Source of the DNA: Oxalobacteraceae bacterium
Lineage (GTDB): Bacteria; Pseudomonadota; Gammaproteobacteria; Burkholderiales; Burkholderiaceae_D
Direction: 5' to 3'
DNA: 54,728 nucleotides
Assembly: GCA_947464955.1 (NCBI GenBank)
Contig: CANHZI010000005.1
Span: 1-54,728 of the forward strand
Part shown: piece by piece, positions 27,891 to 33,072 of the stretch
Layout of the letters: every line of letters starts with the position of its first letter
How positions within the stretch are numbered: position 1 is the stretch's first letter
Notes under the pieces: generated by a model
The model's database searches: none
What the model was told of the DNA's origin: nothing
Seen by the model: the letters and a program-made list of their open reading frames with translations, nothing else
Position numbers and translations under genes: made by a program

Positions 27891-28919
27891 ATGACGTTTC
27901 AAATTAGCATTACACCCAGCGGTCGCCAATTCGAATGCGAAGAGGATGAGAGTATTTTAACAGCTGCCTTGCGCCAAGGTCTCATTTTGCCATATGGCTG
28001 CAAGAACGGTGCGTGTGGCTCGTGTAAAGGCAAAGTGCTTAGTGGTGAAGTGGTACATGGCCCACACCAACAACGCGCGCTCACAGACGAAGAAGCAGCG
28101 CAAGGTGGCGCCCTCTTCTGTTGCGCCAAACCGCACAGCAATGTCACGATCGAAGCGAGAGAGCAACTGGCTGACGACGAATATCCGATCAAGAAACTGC
28201 CAACGCGCATTGCCAAATTAGAGAAACTTTCAGACGATGTCATGCTGATGACTTTGCAGCTGCCTGCAAATGAAAAACTCAACTATCGTGCCGGTCAGTA
28301 CATAGAGTTCTTGTTAAAAGACGGCAAGCGTCGTAGTTACAGCTTAGCGAATGCCCCCCATTCTGAAGAACATCTGAGCTTGCATTTACGCCATATGCCT
28401 GGCGGTTTCTTTACCGATCAAGTTTTTAGCACGATCAAAGAACGCGACATTATGCGCATTGAAGGTCCGCAAGGCAGTTTCTATTTGCGTGAGGACAGCG
28501 ATAAACCCATCATCCTGCTAGCTTCGGGTACGGGCTTTGCCCCGATCAAGGCGATCATGGAACATCTGATTCATTTGCAATCGACACGCCCCGTCAAACT
28601 TTATTGGGGAGGTCGTCGACCACAAGATTTGTATATGCAACTTCTGTGCGAAGAGTGGAGTAAAACCATTTCTCACTTCGAATACATCCCAGTGGTATCA
28701 GACGCGCTCGCCGAAGATCAATGGCAAGGACGCACAGGTTTTGTTCATCAAGCAGTGCTACAAGACCACCCTGACCTCTCTGGCTATCAAGTGTATGCAT
28801 GTGGTGCGCCGGTGGTGGTCGAGTCGGCTAAGCGTGATTTCGTGTCACAGAGTGGTCTGCCCGCAGAAGAATTTTATGCGGATTCGTTCACTTCTGAAGC
28901 GGACTTGGCGAAAAATTAA
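27891..28919 (+). CDS. 2Fe-2S ferredoxin/FNR-type reductase (CDP-6-deoxy-glucoseen reductase-like)
   Basis: This 342-residue electron-transfer protein has an N-terminal plant-type 2Fe-2S domain with PYGCKNGACGSCKGKVL and a later FCC (cluster cysteines). An FAD-binding domain follows with KRRSYSLANAPH (RxYS) and an NAD(P)-binding domain with LLASGTGFAPIKAIMEHL. The order Fd-FAD-NAD matches the AscD/DdhD-like group often annotated as CDP-6-deoxy-delta-3,4-glucoseen reductase in Burkholderiales; in this context an unspecific oxygenase or desaturase reductase is equally possible. The start is ATG 27891 with AGGA 5 bases upstream; the frame is open from 27798 but the extension overlaps the divergent SDR gene. 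Confidence 0.85.
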   Translation: MTFQISITPSGRQFECEEDESILTAALRQGLILPYGCKNGACGSCKGKVLSGEVVHGPHQQRALTDEEAAQGGALFCCAKPHSNVTIEAREQLADDEYPIKKLPTRIAKLEKLSDDVMLMTLQLPANEKLNYRAGQYIEFLLKDGKRRSYSLANAPHSEEHLSLHLRHMPGGFFTDQVFSTIKERDIMRIEGPQGSFYLREDSDKPIILLASGTGFAPIKAIMEHLIHLQSTRPVKLYWGGRRPQDLYMQLLCEEWSKTISHFEYIPVVSDALAEDQWQGRTGFVHQAVLQDHPDLSGYQVYACGAPVVVESAKRDFVSQSGLPAEEFYADSFTSEADLAKN

Positions 28920-29011
28920 TACCGCCCTGCACACTAAAGTTTTTTTCAATTTATTTGGAAATTTTTTTATTGCGGTGCGCAAAACCCACAAAAAACCGTT
29001 ACACTATGCTT

Positions 29012-29095
29012 ATGCAAAATTTTACTGACATGTCTTCCCCAAACATCGCTCGACGTCGCCGTTCGCACTCCGAGCCTGGGAAGTCCTGCGCGTAA
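29012..29095 (+). CDS. Arginine leader peptide upstream of argD
   Basis: This short frame ends ...[17 protein letters not shown] before TAA at 29093-29095. Four consecutive Arg codons (CGA CGT CGC CGT) lie at 29051-29062, just before an intrinsic terminator and the argD-argF-argG genes. In-frame ATGs are at 29006, 29012 and 29030, giving 29, 27 or 21 residues; none has a clear ribosome site. A TACACT -10-like box at 29000-29005 would put the RNA start near 29012, so leaderless translation is possible. Too short for ordinary gene finders. Likely a cis-acting sensor peptide: ribosome stalling when Arg-tRNA is scarce would favour antitermination. Confidence 0.75.
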
Positions 29096-29131
29096 AGAAA
29101 GCAAGGACACATGAAAACCACAGGCTCAACC
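29048..29131 (+). promoter_or_regulatory. Arginine attenuator: alternative pairing segments 1, 2 and 3
   Basis: Segment 1, GCTCG (29048-29052, overlapping the first Arg codon), can pair with segment 2, CGAGC (29071-29075). Segment 2, GAGCCTG (29072-29078), is perfectly complementary to segment 3, CAGGCTC (29121-29127). Segment 3 contains the top of the terminator's 5' arm. A ribosome stalled on the Arg codons would block 1:2 and free segment 2 for 2:3 (antiterminator). A ribosome reaching the stop codon would mask part of segment 2 and let the terminator form. Pairings were read by eye, without folding energies. Confidence 0.75.
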
Positions 29132-29147
29132 CCTGTGGTTTTTTTTT
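29114..29147 (+). terminator. Attenuator terminator upstream of argD
   Basis: AAAACCACAGG (29114-29124) pairs perfectly with CCTGTGGTTTT (29132-29142), loop CTCAACC, followed by an uninterrupted T-run to 29147. It lies between the leader stop (29095) and the argD ribosome site (AAGGAG, 29184-29189). It is a strong intrinsic terminator inside an operon leader. Confidence 0.93.
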
Positions 29148-29196
29148 GCCTTTCACATTTTTATTAAGTTTGCCCTCATCCTCAAGGAGTCTAGAA

Positions 29197-30417
29197 ATGG
29201 AATTTAGTCAGTACAACGTCAACGCCCTGATGTACATCACACCACGTCCAGAATTGGTGTTCACAGAAGGCCGAGGCATGTGGATGACTGATCACAATGG
29301 CAAACGCTATCTCGATTACTTGCAAGGTTGGGCGGTCAATTGCTTAGGTCATTCACCGAAATGCATCGAAGACGCCATCGTCGCCCAAGCGGGGAAACTA
29401 TTGAACCCTTCCCCCGCTTTTTACAATGAGAATATGGTGAAGTTGGCCGACCTGCTCACTCAACATTCTTGTTTCGACCGCGTGTTTTTCGCCAATAGTG
29501 GCGCAGAAGCCAATGAAGGCGCAATCAAACTTGCGCGCAAATGGGGACAAAAAAATAAAAATGGTGCGTTCGAAATCATCACTTTCGATCATGGCTTCCA
29601 CGGCCGTACCTTGGCAACCATGTCCGCCTCCGGCAAACCAGGCTGGGATACGATATTCGCTCCACAAGTTACCGGTTTCCCGAAAGCAGACTTGAACGAT
29701 ATCGCTTCCGTCGAAAAACTGATCAACGACAAAACCGTGGCTGTGATGCTGGAACCAGTACAAGGCGAAGGCGGTGTTATTCCTGCGAGTCGTGAGTTTA
29801 TGCAAGCATTGCGTGCACTGACGCGACAACACAATATTCTTTTAATCGTCGATGAAGTGCAAACCGGCATGGGCCGCACTGGCGAACTCTTTGGCTATCA
29901 ATTATCGGGTATCGAGCCTGACATAATGACGCTCGGCAAAGGCATAGGCGGCGGCGTACCACTGGCGGCATTGCTGGCGAAAGAAGCGGTGTCTTGTTTC
30001 GTACCGGGTGACCAAGGCGGTACTTACAATGGTGCGCCATTAATGACGGCTGCCGGTATCGCGGTGATCAATGCGCTGACCGCACCAGGTTTCCTCGATG
30101 AAGTGAAAGCCAAGGCGGCATATTTAAGTAAAGCTTTGCTCGCGCTTTCAGACAAGTTCCAAATGGAAGGCGAACGTGGCGAAGGCTTACTACGCGCACT
30201 CAAGCTGGGTAGTGATATCGGCCCTCGCCTAGTTGAAGTGGCGCGTGACCTCGAACCTATCGGCTTATTGATTAACTCGCCACGTCCTAATTTATTACGT
30301 TTCATGCCCGCACTCAATGTCAGCTACGAAGAAATCGACACCCTGATTTCTATGTTAAGCCAAGTCATCCAACAGGTGAAAGACGAGCAAGCGGCAGCAC
30401 CAGCAGCACAATCTTAA
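29197..30417 (+). CDS. argD: Acetylornithine aminotransferase
   Basis: A 406-residue class III PLP aminotransferase that converts N-acetylglutamate semialdehyde to N-acetylornithine in arginine synthesis; many members also act in lysine synthesis. Motifs: [60 protein letters not shown] and the PLP lysine in [21 protein letters not shown] 29197 has a consensus AAGGAG 7 bases upstream; the frame is open from 29146 inside the attenuator. It is first in argD-argF-argG and preceded by the Arg leader. Its place next to argF/argG favours ArgD over other class III enzymes. Confidence 0.92.
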
Positions 30418-30466: not shown

Positions 30467-31384
30467 ATGACGATCAAACACTATTTACAAGTAAGCGACT
30501 TGAGTCTAGATGAATACAACTACCTCATGCAGAGGGCGCGTATCATCAAAGACCGATTCAAGCGTTACGAACCCTACCATCCTTTGCTCGACAGAACGCT
30601 GGTCATGGTTTTCGAAAAAAATTCAACCCGTACCCGCTTGAGCTTCGAAGCCGGCATGCATCAATTGGGCGGCGCGGCGATTTATCTCAACACACGCGAT
30701 AGCCAACTGGGCCGCGGCGAGCCAGTGGAAGATGCCGGTCAAGTGATGTCACGCATGTGCGACATCATTATGATTCGTACCTTTGAACAATCGATGATAG
30801 AACGCTTCGCAGCGAACTCACGGGTACCGGTCATCAATGGTTTAACCAATCAACACCATCCTTGCCAAGTATTTGCCGATGTTTTCACTTACATCGAACA
30901 TCGTGGTTCTATCGCCGGCAAGAAAGTGGCTTGGATTGGCGATGCCAACAATATGCTGTACTCCTGGATGCAAGCGGCCAAAGTATTTGGTTTCCATTTA
31001 CACATTTCCACACCAAAAGGCTATGACATCGATCCTGCCTGCGTGACTGTCGAGGATACCTATTACACGGTGTTTGCGAATCCATCTGATGCTTGTGAGG
31101 GTGTGCACCTCGTCAATACTGACGTCTGGACCAGCATGGGTTACGAAGCTGAAAACCAAGCGCGCTTGAAAGCCTTTGATGGTTGGATCGTGGACGAAGC
31201 CAAAATGGGTCACGCTGATCCTCAAGCGTTATTCATGCACTGCTTGCCAGCGCACCGTGGCGAAGAGGTGTCCGCCGGTGTCATCGACGGCCCGCAATCT
31301 GTGGTCTGGGATGAAGCTGAGAACCGACTACATGTCCAAAAAGCCTTACTCGAATATTTAGTCATCGGCAAAGTCGACAATTAA
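30467..31384 (+). CDS. argF: Ornithine carbamoyltransferase
   Basis: This 305-residue enzyme makes citrulline from ornithine and carbamoyl phosphate. The carbamoyl-phosphate motif is [20 protein letters not shown], followed by [16 protein letters not shown] (HPCQ) and [13 protein letters not shown] (HCLP, ornithine site). Length is normal. It follows argD by 49 bases and precedes argG by 49 bases, consistent with one arginine operon under the upstream attenuator. Confidence 0.98.
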
Positions 31385-31433: not shown

Positions 31434-32663
31434 ATGAGCGACGTAAAAAAAGTAGTTTTAGCCTATTCCGGTGGTCTCGATACTTCCGTCATTTTGAAGT
31501 GGTTACAAGATAACTATCAATGCGAAATCGTGACGTTCACCGCTGACCTCGGTCAAGGCGAAGAGCTCGAACCCGCACGTGCAAAAGCAATCAAATTTGG
31601 CATCAAACCAGAGAATATTTTCATCGATGACTTGCGTGAAGAATTTGTGCGCGACTTCGTCTTTCCTATGTTTCGCGCTAATACCGTATACGAAGGTGAA
31701 TACCTGCTCGGCACGTCAATCGCGCGCCCACTGATTGCAAAACGATTGATTGAAATCGCCAAACTAACTGGCGCTGATACGATTTCACACGGTGCTACGG
31801 GCAAAGGCAATGACCAAGTTCGTTTTGAATTGGGTGCCTATGCATTGATGCCGAATGTCAAAGTCATCGCACCATGGCGTGAATGGGATTTACTCTCTCG
31901 TGAAAAATTACTGAAGTATGCAGAAGATGCCGGTATTGCAATCGATATGAAACACAAAAATGGTGGCGCACCGTACTCGATGGATGCCAACCTCTTGCAT
32001 ATCAGTTTTGAAGGCCGTCATTTGGAAAACCCAAGTGCGGAAGCCGAAGAATCGATGTGGCGCTGGACAGTCAGCCCAGAAGCTGCACCAGATACGCCTG
32101 AGTATTTGGATATCGAATACGAAAAAGGCGATATCGTGGCATTGAACGGTGTACGCATGTCTCCTGCCGCTGTATTAACTGAACTCAATCGTTTAGGTGG
32201 TAAGCACGGCATTGGTCGTTTGGATTTGGTCGAAAACCGCTACGTCGGCATGAAGTCCCGCGGCTGCTACGAAACACCTGGCGGCACTATTATGCTCCGT
32301 GCGCACCGCGCAATTGAATCGATTACTTTGGATCGCGAAGTCGCACATTTGAAGGACGATTTGATGCCGCGTTACGCTAGCTTAATCTATAACGGCTACT
32401 GGTGGGCACCAGAACGCGTGGCACTGCAAACCTTGATCGACCACACGCAACAAACGGTCAATGGTTGGGTACGTGTCAAGCTTTACAAAGGCAACGTTAT
32501 CACGGTCTCGCGTGACTCCAAAACTGACTCTTTGTTTGACATGAACATCGCTACCTTTGACGAAGATGGTGGTGCTTACAACCAAGCCGATGCAGGTGGC
32601 TTCATCAAATTAAATGCCCTGCGTATGCGCATTGCGGCGAACGCGAAAATCAAACGTTCCTAA
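31434..32663 (+). CDS. argG: Argininosuccinate synthase
   Basis: This 409-residue enzyme joins citrulline and aspartate with ATP hydrolysis to AMP. It begins [20 protein letters not shown], whose SGGLDTS is the PP-loop, and contains [18 protein letters not shown] and [14 protein letters not shown]. Length suits the short bacterial form. It is the last arginine gene here; argH is not in the window. An intrinsic terminator follows. Confidence 0.98.
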
Positions 32664-32757: not shown

Positions 32758-33072
32758 ATGAGCACACAATTTGATCAAGTCAGTGTCGTCAAAAAGGCGA
32801 ACATCTACTTTGACGGCAAGTGTATTTCGCACACCGTTTTATTTGCCGATGGCAGCAAAAAGACTATCGGTGTCATTTTTCCTTCTTCGCTCACGTTTAA
32901 TACTGCTGCAGCGGAAATCATGGAAATCAACGCAGGCAGATGTCGTATCACGCTTGCTGGCGAAAATGAAGCAAAAACCTACTCTGCCGGAGAACAATTT
33001 TCAGTGCCGGCAAACTCGAGTTTTCAGATAGAGACGATTGAGACACTCGACTATGTTTGCCATTTCGTTTAA
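32758..33072 (+). CDS. ppnP: Pyrimidine/purine nucleoside phosphorylase PpnP
   Basis: A 104-residue single-domain cupin of the PpnP (YaiE, DUF1255) family, which phosphorolyses several nucleosides to free bases. Family features are [46 protein letters not shown] and [11 protein letters not shown]. Length is typical. It follows the arg terminator, so it probably has its own promoter. Confidence 0.92.

Follow-up and report, generated by a model that had tools for sequence, protein, structure and literature searches.

A probable arginine-responsive transcription attenuator upstream of argD-argF-argG in an Oxalobacteraceae bacterium and its relatives

Are the argD, argF and argG genes of an Oxalobacteraceae bacterium controlled by a ribosome that reads Arg codons in a short leader? 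The question is raised by a 54,728-nt window (the whole stretch of DNA analysed) from a 4.66-Mb draft genome, where an upstream gene, a leader, a terminator and argD-argF-argG follow one another on the + strand. Clustered Arg codons precede arginine genes here, and an intrinsic terminator lies between the leader ORF and argD. In this study we propose, from sequence analysis, that the leader is an arginine-specific ribosome-mediated transcription attenuator of argD-argF-argG, a reading to which we give a probability of roughly 0.88. The original prediction of a trp/his-type attenuator with Arg codons is supported, with corrections on the 1:2 pairing, the partner of segment 2 and the leaderless start. 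The features of the locus are the following.

To 28919, + strand: 3' end of a ferredoxin-reductase-like gene, upstream of the leader
28976-28981, + strand: TGCGCA, a poor -35 candidate, the best for the leader promoter (18-nt spacer, 3/6 consensus matches)
29000-29005, + strand: TACACT, -10 box of the leader promoter by consensus match, ending 6 nt before the leader ATG
29012-29095, + strand: leader ORF of 27 codons, proposed name argL (ATG at 29012, TAA at 29093-29095), conserved in relatives
29034-29039, + strand: CUUCCC, candidate segment 1, complementary to GGGAAG at 29078-29083, this helix being itself a candidate
29051-29062, + strand: control codons CGA CGT CGC CGT, four Arg, read from the sequence
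29072-29080, + strand: segment 2, GAGCCUGGG, putative 5' strand of the antiterminator, from duplex energy and covariation in relatives
29083-29108, + strand: predicted inner helix of the antiterminator, GUCCUGC (29083-29089) with GCAAGGAC (29101-29108), A29103 bulged
29114-29147, + strand: intrinsic terminator, arms 29114-29124 and 29132-29142, 7-nt loop, T-run 29139-29147
29118-29127, + strand: segment 3, CCACAGGCUC, pairing with segment 2 and, by its 5' part, also with the terminator 3' arm
29184-29189, + strand: AAGGAG, Shine-Dalgarno-like sequence of argD, read from the sequence
29197-30417, + strand: argD, acetylornithine transaminase (NCBIfam NF002985, 742.1 bits, cut-off 568)
30467-31384, + strand: argF, ornithine carbamoyltransferase (NCBIfam NF001986 and TIGR00658, above cut-off)
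31434-32663, + strand: argG, argininosuccinate synthase (NCBIfam NF001770, above cut-off)

The Arg codons and the terminator lie exactly where the original prediction had placed them, by direct reading, and the three genes that follow were identified by NCBIfam models. A pattern scan recovered the terminator at 29114-29147 and counted 12 pairs, and the leader ORF contains a second in-frame ATG at 29030. We infer that argG is co-transcribed with argD-argF from the common strand and the 49-nt gap; a 104-residue ORF 3' of argG (32758-33072, + strand), which we take to resemble ppnP, may be co-transcribed as well. On both strands of the window, no second ATG ORF shorter than 50 codons with at least three consecutive Arg and a perfect-stem terminator was found. 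When the family model was searched in the window's own genome, the leader scored 71.2 bits against at most 28.3 bits elsewhere among the 150 of 970 candidates scored; this search gave 15 matches up to E 10, the best one off the locus covering model positions 64-116 only.

With the window ArgD as query, matches were obtained in 145 of 145 genomes of the family, in many of which only paralogues about 40% identical were matched, and the family sample was made of the regions 5' of the 76 best near-full-length argD places (69-100% identical), five fragmentary places being left out (two in G066, one in G087, two in G105). A CCACAGG...CCTGTGG terminator with a T-run is present in 67 of the 76 loci, and the terminator together with an ORF containing at least two consecutive Arg in 66. 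The leader or its Arg run is missing in the other ten, nine of which have neither and one (L067, genome G038) the terminator only; by eye, L067 shows a leader-like ORF with a single CGA at the usual place (MNIQTKFNRGSTSLVQSGKPCA) ahead of the terminator. At the level of the order, ArgD was matched at E<=1e-140 in 58 of 399 genomes, at 60 places including 7 of the family. The layout is present in 21 of the 53 argD loci outside the family, in nine families (f3, f5, f10, f14, f20, f23, f31, f35 and f39), and was not seen in the other 32; these 21 leaders and their terminators were chosen by eye. The conservation of Arg codons in relatives, which had been put forward as a check of the prediction, is therefore borne out both within the family and in nine others.

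Searching 84,980 genomes for the exact pattern of Arg run and terminator gave 79 matches, with ArgD at most 600 nt downstream in 65 of them; two others lie at a sequence edge (L253, L256), one stands before another ORF (L239) and 11 have no ArgD match. L239, from the MAG Burkholderiaceae bacterium MAG_BA346, has a complete leader at about 1700-2350 before an ORF judged by eye to be acetyltransferase-like. A very similar leader occurs in a named Undibacterium MAG (L206), and by this similarity the window probably belongs to Undibacterium. A covariance-model search of the order matched 108 of 399 genomes at E<=0.01, mostly by terminator parts alone, and among the 13 matches read, four are leaders before ArgD (L090, L091, L101, L102) and nine are not. 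Inspection by eye of the regions before argF in 19 further genomes of the family (L115-L133) revealed no such leader; many of these regions have a TATAAT-like box near argF, and in L132 and L133 argF directly follows another ORF. L002 carries between terminator and argD an insertion of about 120 nt with inverted ends (GGACTTATGCAAAATTGTCCCAGC...GCTGGGACTG), mobile-element-like by eye.

Among families the terminator stems vary (CCACAGG, CCACGGG, CCACGC, GGCCGC, GCCGCGC and others) and the Arg runs stay. In alignment A1, which holds 60 of the 66 family leaders (L005, L010, L026, L053, L073 and L074 being left out), the stem CCACAGG is invariant, a motif on which the search pattern had selected, and RNAalifold recovered the terminator stem. 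For the tests below, the 87 leaders were reduced to 84 distinct ones (shuffle test) and to 60 below 80% identity (swap tests and folding).

All 87 leaders have a run of 2-4 Arg, but a pair of Arg was a condition of their selection, and the count free of this bias is 66 of the 76 loci. Arg occupies positions 9 and 10 in 42 and position 11 in 38 of the 43 family leaders that are 22 residues long, with varying codon choice at positions 10 and 11. CGA stands first in the run in 83 of the 87 leaders (56 of 60 in the nonredundant set) and occurs somewhere in the run in all 87. The same codon makes up only 8 of the 499 Arg codons of 30 family argD genes, which gives the count of the nonredundant set a binomial p of 1e-95. 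Among the 30 of 39 tRNA matches read in the window's own genome, the tRNA-Arg anticodons are ACG (two copies), CCG and TCT, and TCG was not seen; with ACG present, CGA is thus presumably decoded by inosine wobble, which is slow. A slow CGA as first control codon would sharpen ribosome stalling, and a rare control codon is known from the leu attenuator as well. Another possible reason for CGA is a constraint on the RNA. As CGA comes first in nearly every leader, an attenuator here would offer a natural test of the rare-codon idea. A second Arg cluster near the leader stop, in or adjoining the segment-2 region, was observed in families f3, f10, f23 and f39 (L164, L169, L170, L172, L173, L174, L177, L178 and L181).

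A slow CGA would presumably respond to general stress too, and the leader might then be a general translation sensor, in which any slow ribosome, owing to an antibiotic or to any starvation, leads to readthrough without specificity for arginine. We give this idea next to no credence, since Arg codons alone are common to the families and the downstream genes make arginine. Another view is that the peptide itself, like SpeFL, would be the sensor within the ribosomal tunnel, of arginine, ornithine or a polyamine, its arrest blocking termination. The leaders share the Arg-Arg core of ORF34, and Pro20 and Cys21 are frequent in the 43 leaders of 22 residues (37 and 35, respectively). However, conservation between families does not extend beyond the Arg run of the peptide, the leader ORFs of L145 and L147 stop 16 codons in, four past the Arg run, and for four leader peptides neither Pfam nor NCBIfam gave a match up to E 10, short peptides being hard for such models. 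Moreover, the frequent peptide end corresponds to the bases of segment 2 found to covary with the loop, as described below. Nascent-peptide arrest is on this evidence highly improbable, and sensing through arginine codons remains our reading.

An attenuator of this type would switch between alternative RNA structures. As had been predicted, GAGCCTG (29072-29078) and CAGGCTC (29121-29127) are complementary without a mismatch, and this 2:3 pairing can be extended by two pairs, 29079-29080 with 29118-29119, around a bulged A29120. The window duplex has an energy of -16.7 kcal/mol, with a z of -3.42 against shuffles. When leaders were compared with dinucleotide shuffles, the 3' arm being excluded, the 21 non-family leaders gave a mean z of -1.69 (9 at p<=0.05), and the 63 family leaders, with a mean z of -0.33 (6 at p<=0.05), were not unusual. 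Composition is controlled better by a swap test, in which the own segment 2-terminator partners are set against 5000 reassignments, kinship being reduced by the 80% identity filter alone. Own partners beat swapped ones in the family (n=40, 0 of 5000 permutations, z -5.66) as well as in other families (n=20, 0 of 5000, z -4.40); in a genus group of eight leaders the p was 0.034 only. Control swaps against the terminator of the Arg-run region (R1:R3), of the stretch before it (R0:R3) and of the promoter (promoter:R3) were not significant in the same 40 family and 20 other leaders. With segment 3 taken at three extents (0, 3 and 5 nt), the permutation p was always <=0.0012, and the 2:3 signal is clear only with swapped partners and with the loop and first 3'-arm bases included. 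The 2:3 complementarity thus covaries with the terminator inside and outside the family, the second check that had been suggested.

Within 21 nonredundant leaders that share one architecture, codons 18-22 carry the signal (z -5.97, 0 of 3000). There was none just past the Arg run (z 0.43) or at the stop (z 1.34), and for the sequence between stop and stem, swapped terminators were a better fit than the leader's own (z 2.48). The partner of segment 2 takes in the loop, and registers shift (GGAU/AUCC, GGGAU/AUCCC, GGUUU/AAACC). Five fixed registers in 37 leaders gave 43, 41, 87, 84 and 64 pairs of 148, counts reached by 17, 997, 0, 193 and 907 of 1000 permutations, respectively; in the 21 nonredundant leaders they gave 29, 27, 48, 49 and 37 pairs of 84 (18, 927, 18, 224 and 975 of 1000), and these mixed counts indicate that no one register accounts for all leaders. 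Outside the family, segment 2 fits differing stems (GUGCGGCC/GGCCGCAC, GUCUGUG/CACAGAC, CCGUGGC/GCCACGG). RNAalifold gave a weak consensus antiterminator (-2.4 kcal/mol) for 40 equal-length family leaders. The overlap of segment 3 with the terminator arm, part of the original prediction, was confirmed; the arm alone is not enough, the family-wide partner being the arm, the loop and the start of the 3' arm. These comparisons argue for a mutually exclusive antiterminator (2:3) and terminator (3:4) that evolution has conserved, the shuffles within the family giving the weaker signal.

This covariation also bears on the most ordinary explanation, namely that the terminator serves the ferredoxin-reductase-like gene, the Arg-rich ORF is incidental and argD has its own promoter. 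Indeed, the terminator starts 195 nt past the end of that gene, and dinucleotide shuffles of 28000-30000 yield 2.7 terminator-like sites on average. Chance would nevertheless have to produce an ORF and terminator conserved over ten families, the CGA bias and the 2:3 covariation, and a promoter scan of 28000-30000 gave no + strand match, although it also misses the weak leader promoter. We therefore regard this explanation as extremely improbable beside a conserved attenuator.

The proposed 1:2 pairing fared less well. GCTCG (29048-29052) and CGAGC (29071-29075) are complementary, but the helix is not conserved, being perfect in two of six genus rows of alignment A1 (L001 and L002), where the others read GCGCG/CGAGC, GCACG/AGAGC, GCCCG/CGAGC and GTGCG/TGAGC. 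With a z of 0.17 for the Arg-run region against segment 2 in the group of eight (seven leaders of the window's genus and L065 of another genus), this helix was rejected. In the wider sets, the same swap (R1:R2) gave z -3.25 and p 0.0006 in the family and p 0.048 in other families. The stretch before the Arg run against segment 2 (R0:R2) gave p 0.004 in the eight, 0.0074 in 40 family leaders and 0.08 in 20 others. These swaps lend moderate support to a candidate alternative 1:2 helix, whose 5' strand CUUCCC (29034-29039) precedes the Arg codons and might be masked by a stalled ribosome.

Folding of the nascent window RNA with a ribosome stalled at Arg gave the antiterminator with its inner helix (-21.5 kcal/mol). 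At equilibrium, the probability of the terminator in the window was 0.70 with the ribosome stalled, 0.97 with the ribosome at the stop and 0.97 without ribosome. In the same order, the values were 0.00, 0.99 and 0.99 for L158 and 0.32, 0.97 and 0.96 for L170, and the masks changed nothing in L178 (0.89 throughout) and L187 (1.00 throughout). Stalling lowered the probability by more than 0.05 in 30 of 60 leaders (15 of 40 in the family, 15 of 20 others), with stalled means of 0.84 vs 0.99 in the family and 0.57 vs 0.99 in the others. Equilibrium folding takes no account of a possible earlier formation of the antiterminator, so these values support the switch and do not prove it.

Where does the leader RNA begin? 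Upstream of the leader ATG, the best -35/-10 pair ends at a distance of 6 nt in 24 of the 87 leaders, 7 nt in 61 and 8 nt in 2. In the family, only ORFs containing RR were accepted as leaders and an ATG preceded at 5-9 nt by a -10 box was preferred; in 41 of the 87 leaders a single in-frame ATG precedes the run of Arg. When applied before argD, the scan gave distances scattered over 0-17 nt. Promoter matches are poor in the window subclade and also in L152, L157 and L158. Transcription usually starts some 7 nt after the -10 box, and with this box 6-8 nt before the ATG in all 87 leaders the leader ORF is probably leaderless; in the window, the RNA would start at or next to A29012 and probably be translated as a leaderless mRNA. 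Such mRNAs are known from B. cenocepacia and Cupriavidus, according to the accessible parts of two papers (PMC4603805, PMC7563307). Over the -35 region and spacer, many family members show a palindrome-like TTGACGCA-C-TGCGCAA (e.g. L012 1289-1326; window 28970-28983), which could be an operator. In the window subclade (L001, L002, L006) the TGCGCAA part is kept and the good -35 lost.

A related RNA is already catalogued. Three Burkholderia-type leaders 5' of ArgD (L142, L145 and L147) match Rfam RF02884 (BcKCsr7) over its full length with 163.7, 143.0 and 92.6 bits (cut-off 59), the matches spanning the ATG, the CGACG run and the terminator. RF02884, 'Burkholderia sRNA 7', is typed in Rfam as an sRNA gene and listed without function. 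L023 and L135 reached it below cut-off (25.9 and 26.7 bits); the window does not match it at the gathering cut-off of 59, and a search of 28900-29210 up to E 10 gave five Rfam matches, none of them to RF02884 and all on the - strand with scores below their cut-offs. In the available portion of PMC10987360, Bc_KC_sr7 equals nc5U30 and RIT34, at 2,967,641-2,967,787 (147 nt) of B. cenocepacia J2315 chromosome 1, and according to excerpts of two reviews, Bc_KC_sr1-7 were confirmed to be expressed in strain KC-01. The nc5U names, as we understand them, come from Sass et al. (PMC5688073) and designate 82 short 5'UTRs; the main text of that paper, in the portion available, does not contain the name nc5U30. 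The RF02884 model runs from just 5' of the ATG to the terminator; we estimate about 143 nt from ATG to end, close to the listed 147 nt, which fits a start near the ATG. The terminated leader RNA has probably been observed already as this B. cenocepacia RNA.

The locus could thus be read as the gene of a trans-acting, mainly regulatory sRNA, its position at argD and its Arg codons being secondary. This would agree with the sRNA typing of the RF02884 family matched by the three Burkholderia-type homologues (listed as RIT34/nc5U30/Bc_KC_sr7) and with the invariance of CCACAGG in the 60 family leaders, though the search pattern selected on it. Yet an sRNA needs neither Arg codons nor 2:3 covariation, 65 of the 79 pattern matches lie directly 5' of ArgD, and the stems vary among families, all of which makes a primary sRNA role very unlikely compared with attenuation. 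The original prediction had also stated that no described attenuator of this kind was known to its author. This holds for the open literature as far as its text was accessible, where we found no arginine-synthesis attenuator of the classic class and no text naming the BcKCsr7/nc5U30 RNA an arginine attenuator, but the Burkholderia homologue is already listed as an sRNA.

The repressor ArgR (PF01316) was over cut-off in none of 141 family genomes, the window's own included (weak matches in G023 and G064), nor did 51 other genomes of the order show a match, which makes 0 of 192 over cut-off overall; it exceeded the cut-off in 8 of 14 control genomes. A regulon study, in the part available to us, describes ArgR as conserved in many gammaproteobacterial groups and absent in other classes (PMC5343134). 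The missing ArgR fits an attenuator that has taken over arginine control. The leader is not the sole answer to this absence, as 32 of the 53 argD loci of the order outside the family are without it.

We propose that RNA polymerase would start at or next to the leader ATG and that a ribosome would bind the leaderless ORF and trail the polymerase. With plentiful charged tRNA-Arg, the ribosome would reach the stop and cover segment 2, the terminator would form and the RNA would end near 29147. When arginine is short, the ribosome would stall at the Arg codons, the first being the rare CGA, and thereby expose segment 2. This segment could then pair with the 5' arm and loop of the terminator and, for most of the family, also with the first bases of its 3' arm. 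This pairing would precede completion of the 3' arm, and the polymerase would read through into the arg genes. The start site, translation, stalling and arginine response of the leader are what we infer from sequence comparison.

If correct, this attenuator would be the arginine member of the classic attenuator class, explain the control of arginine synthesis where no ArgR was found, and provide a function for the orphan Burkholderia RNA family RF02884. By analogy, one may further speculate that arginine attenuation is an ancestral, repressor-free control across the order and that the terminated leaderless RNA has a trans-acting role, as an sRNA or a very small mRNA, an extension that we consider doubtful. 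In that case the RNA would accumulate at plentiful arginine, as rnTrpL does for tryptophan, BcKCsr7/nc5U30 would gain a function, and arginine status would be linked to other genes.

The following comparisons rely on the accessible portions of the papers cited. The trp, his, leu and ilv attenuators likewise combine a run of codons for the amino acid, an intrinsic terminator and an exclusive antiterminator (PMC7298713). Unlike in that class, the codons here are for Arg, the ORF is apparently leaderless, the 1:2 helix is weakly supported, and the predicted partner of segment 2 takes in, besides the arm, the loop and often the beginning of the 3' arm; L136 and L152 reach Rfam Trp_leader or Leu_leader with sub-threshold scores (29.9 of 41 bits; 26.2 and 26.4 of 50 bits). 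In the Salmonella speF leader, two consecutive Arg codons of ORF34 also sense arginine and alter the downstream RNA fold, but the output involves Rho termination, RBS access and RNase G and controls putrescine synthesis (PMC6386406). The speF leader peptide is a conserved DUF2618 peptide, whereas the four leader peptides searched here had no Pfam match up to E 10. The Rhodobacterales cysS leader uORFC-8-2 resembles the present one in its conserved ATG and tandem codons for the relevant amino acid and differs in concerning cysteine, a tRNA synthetase and alphaproteobacteria (PMC8632094). P. aeruginosa carA has a leader peptide and a stem-loop before an arginine/pyrimidine gene, but there the stem-loop responds to pyrimidines, and arginine acts via ArgR (PMC4997734). 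In S. meliloti trpL, as proposed here, the RNA 5' end lies at the leader ATG, so that the ORF is leaderless, attenuation operates without repression of transcription and the liberated RNA, rnTrpL, is an sRNA; that system differs in sensing tryptophan, in belonging to the alphaproteobacteria and in that trans roles have been shown there (PMC7298713). The attenuator proposed for argD-argF-argG is new in its sensor and pathway, and familiar in its logic.
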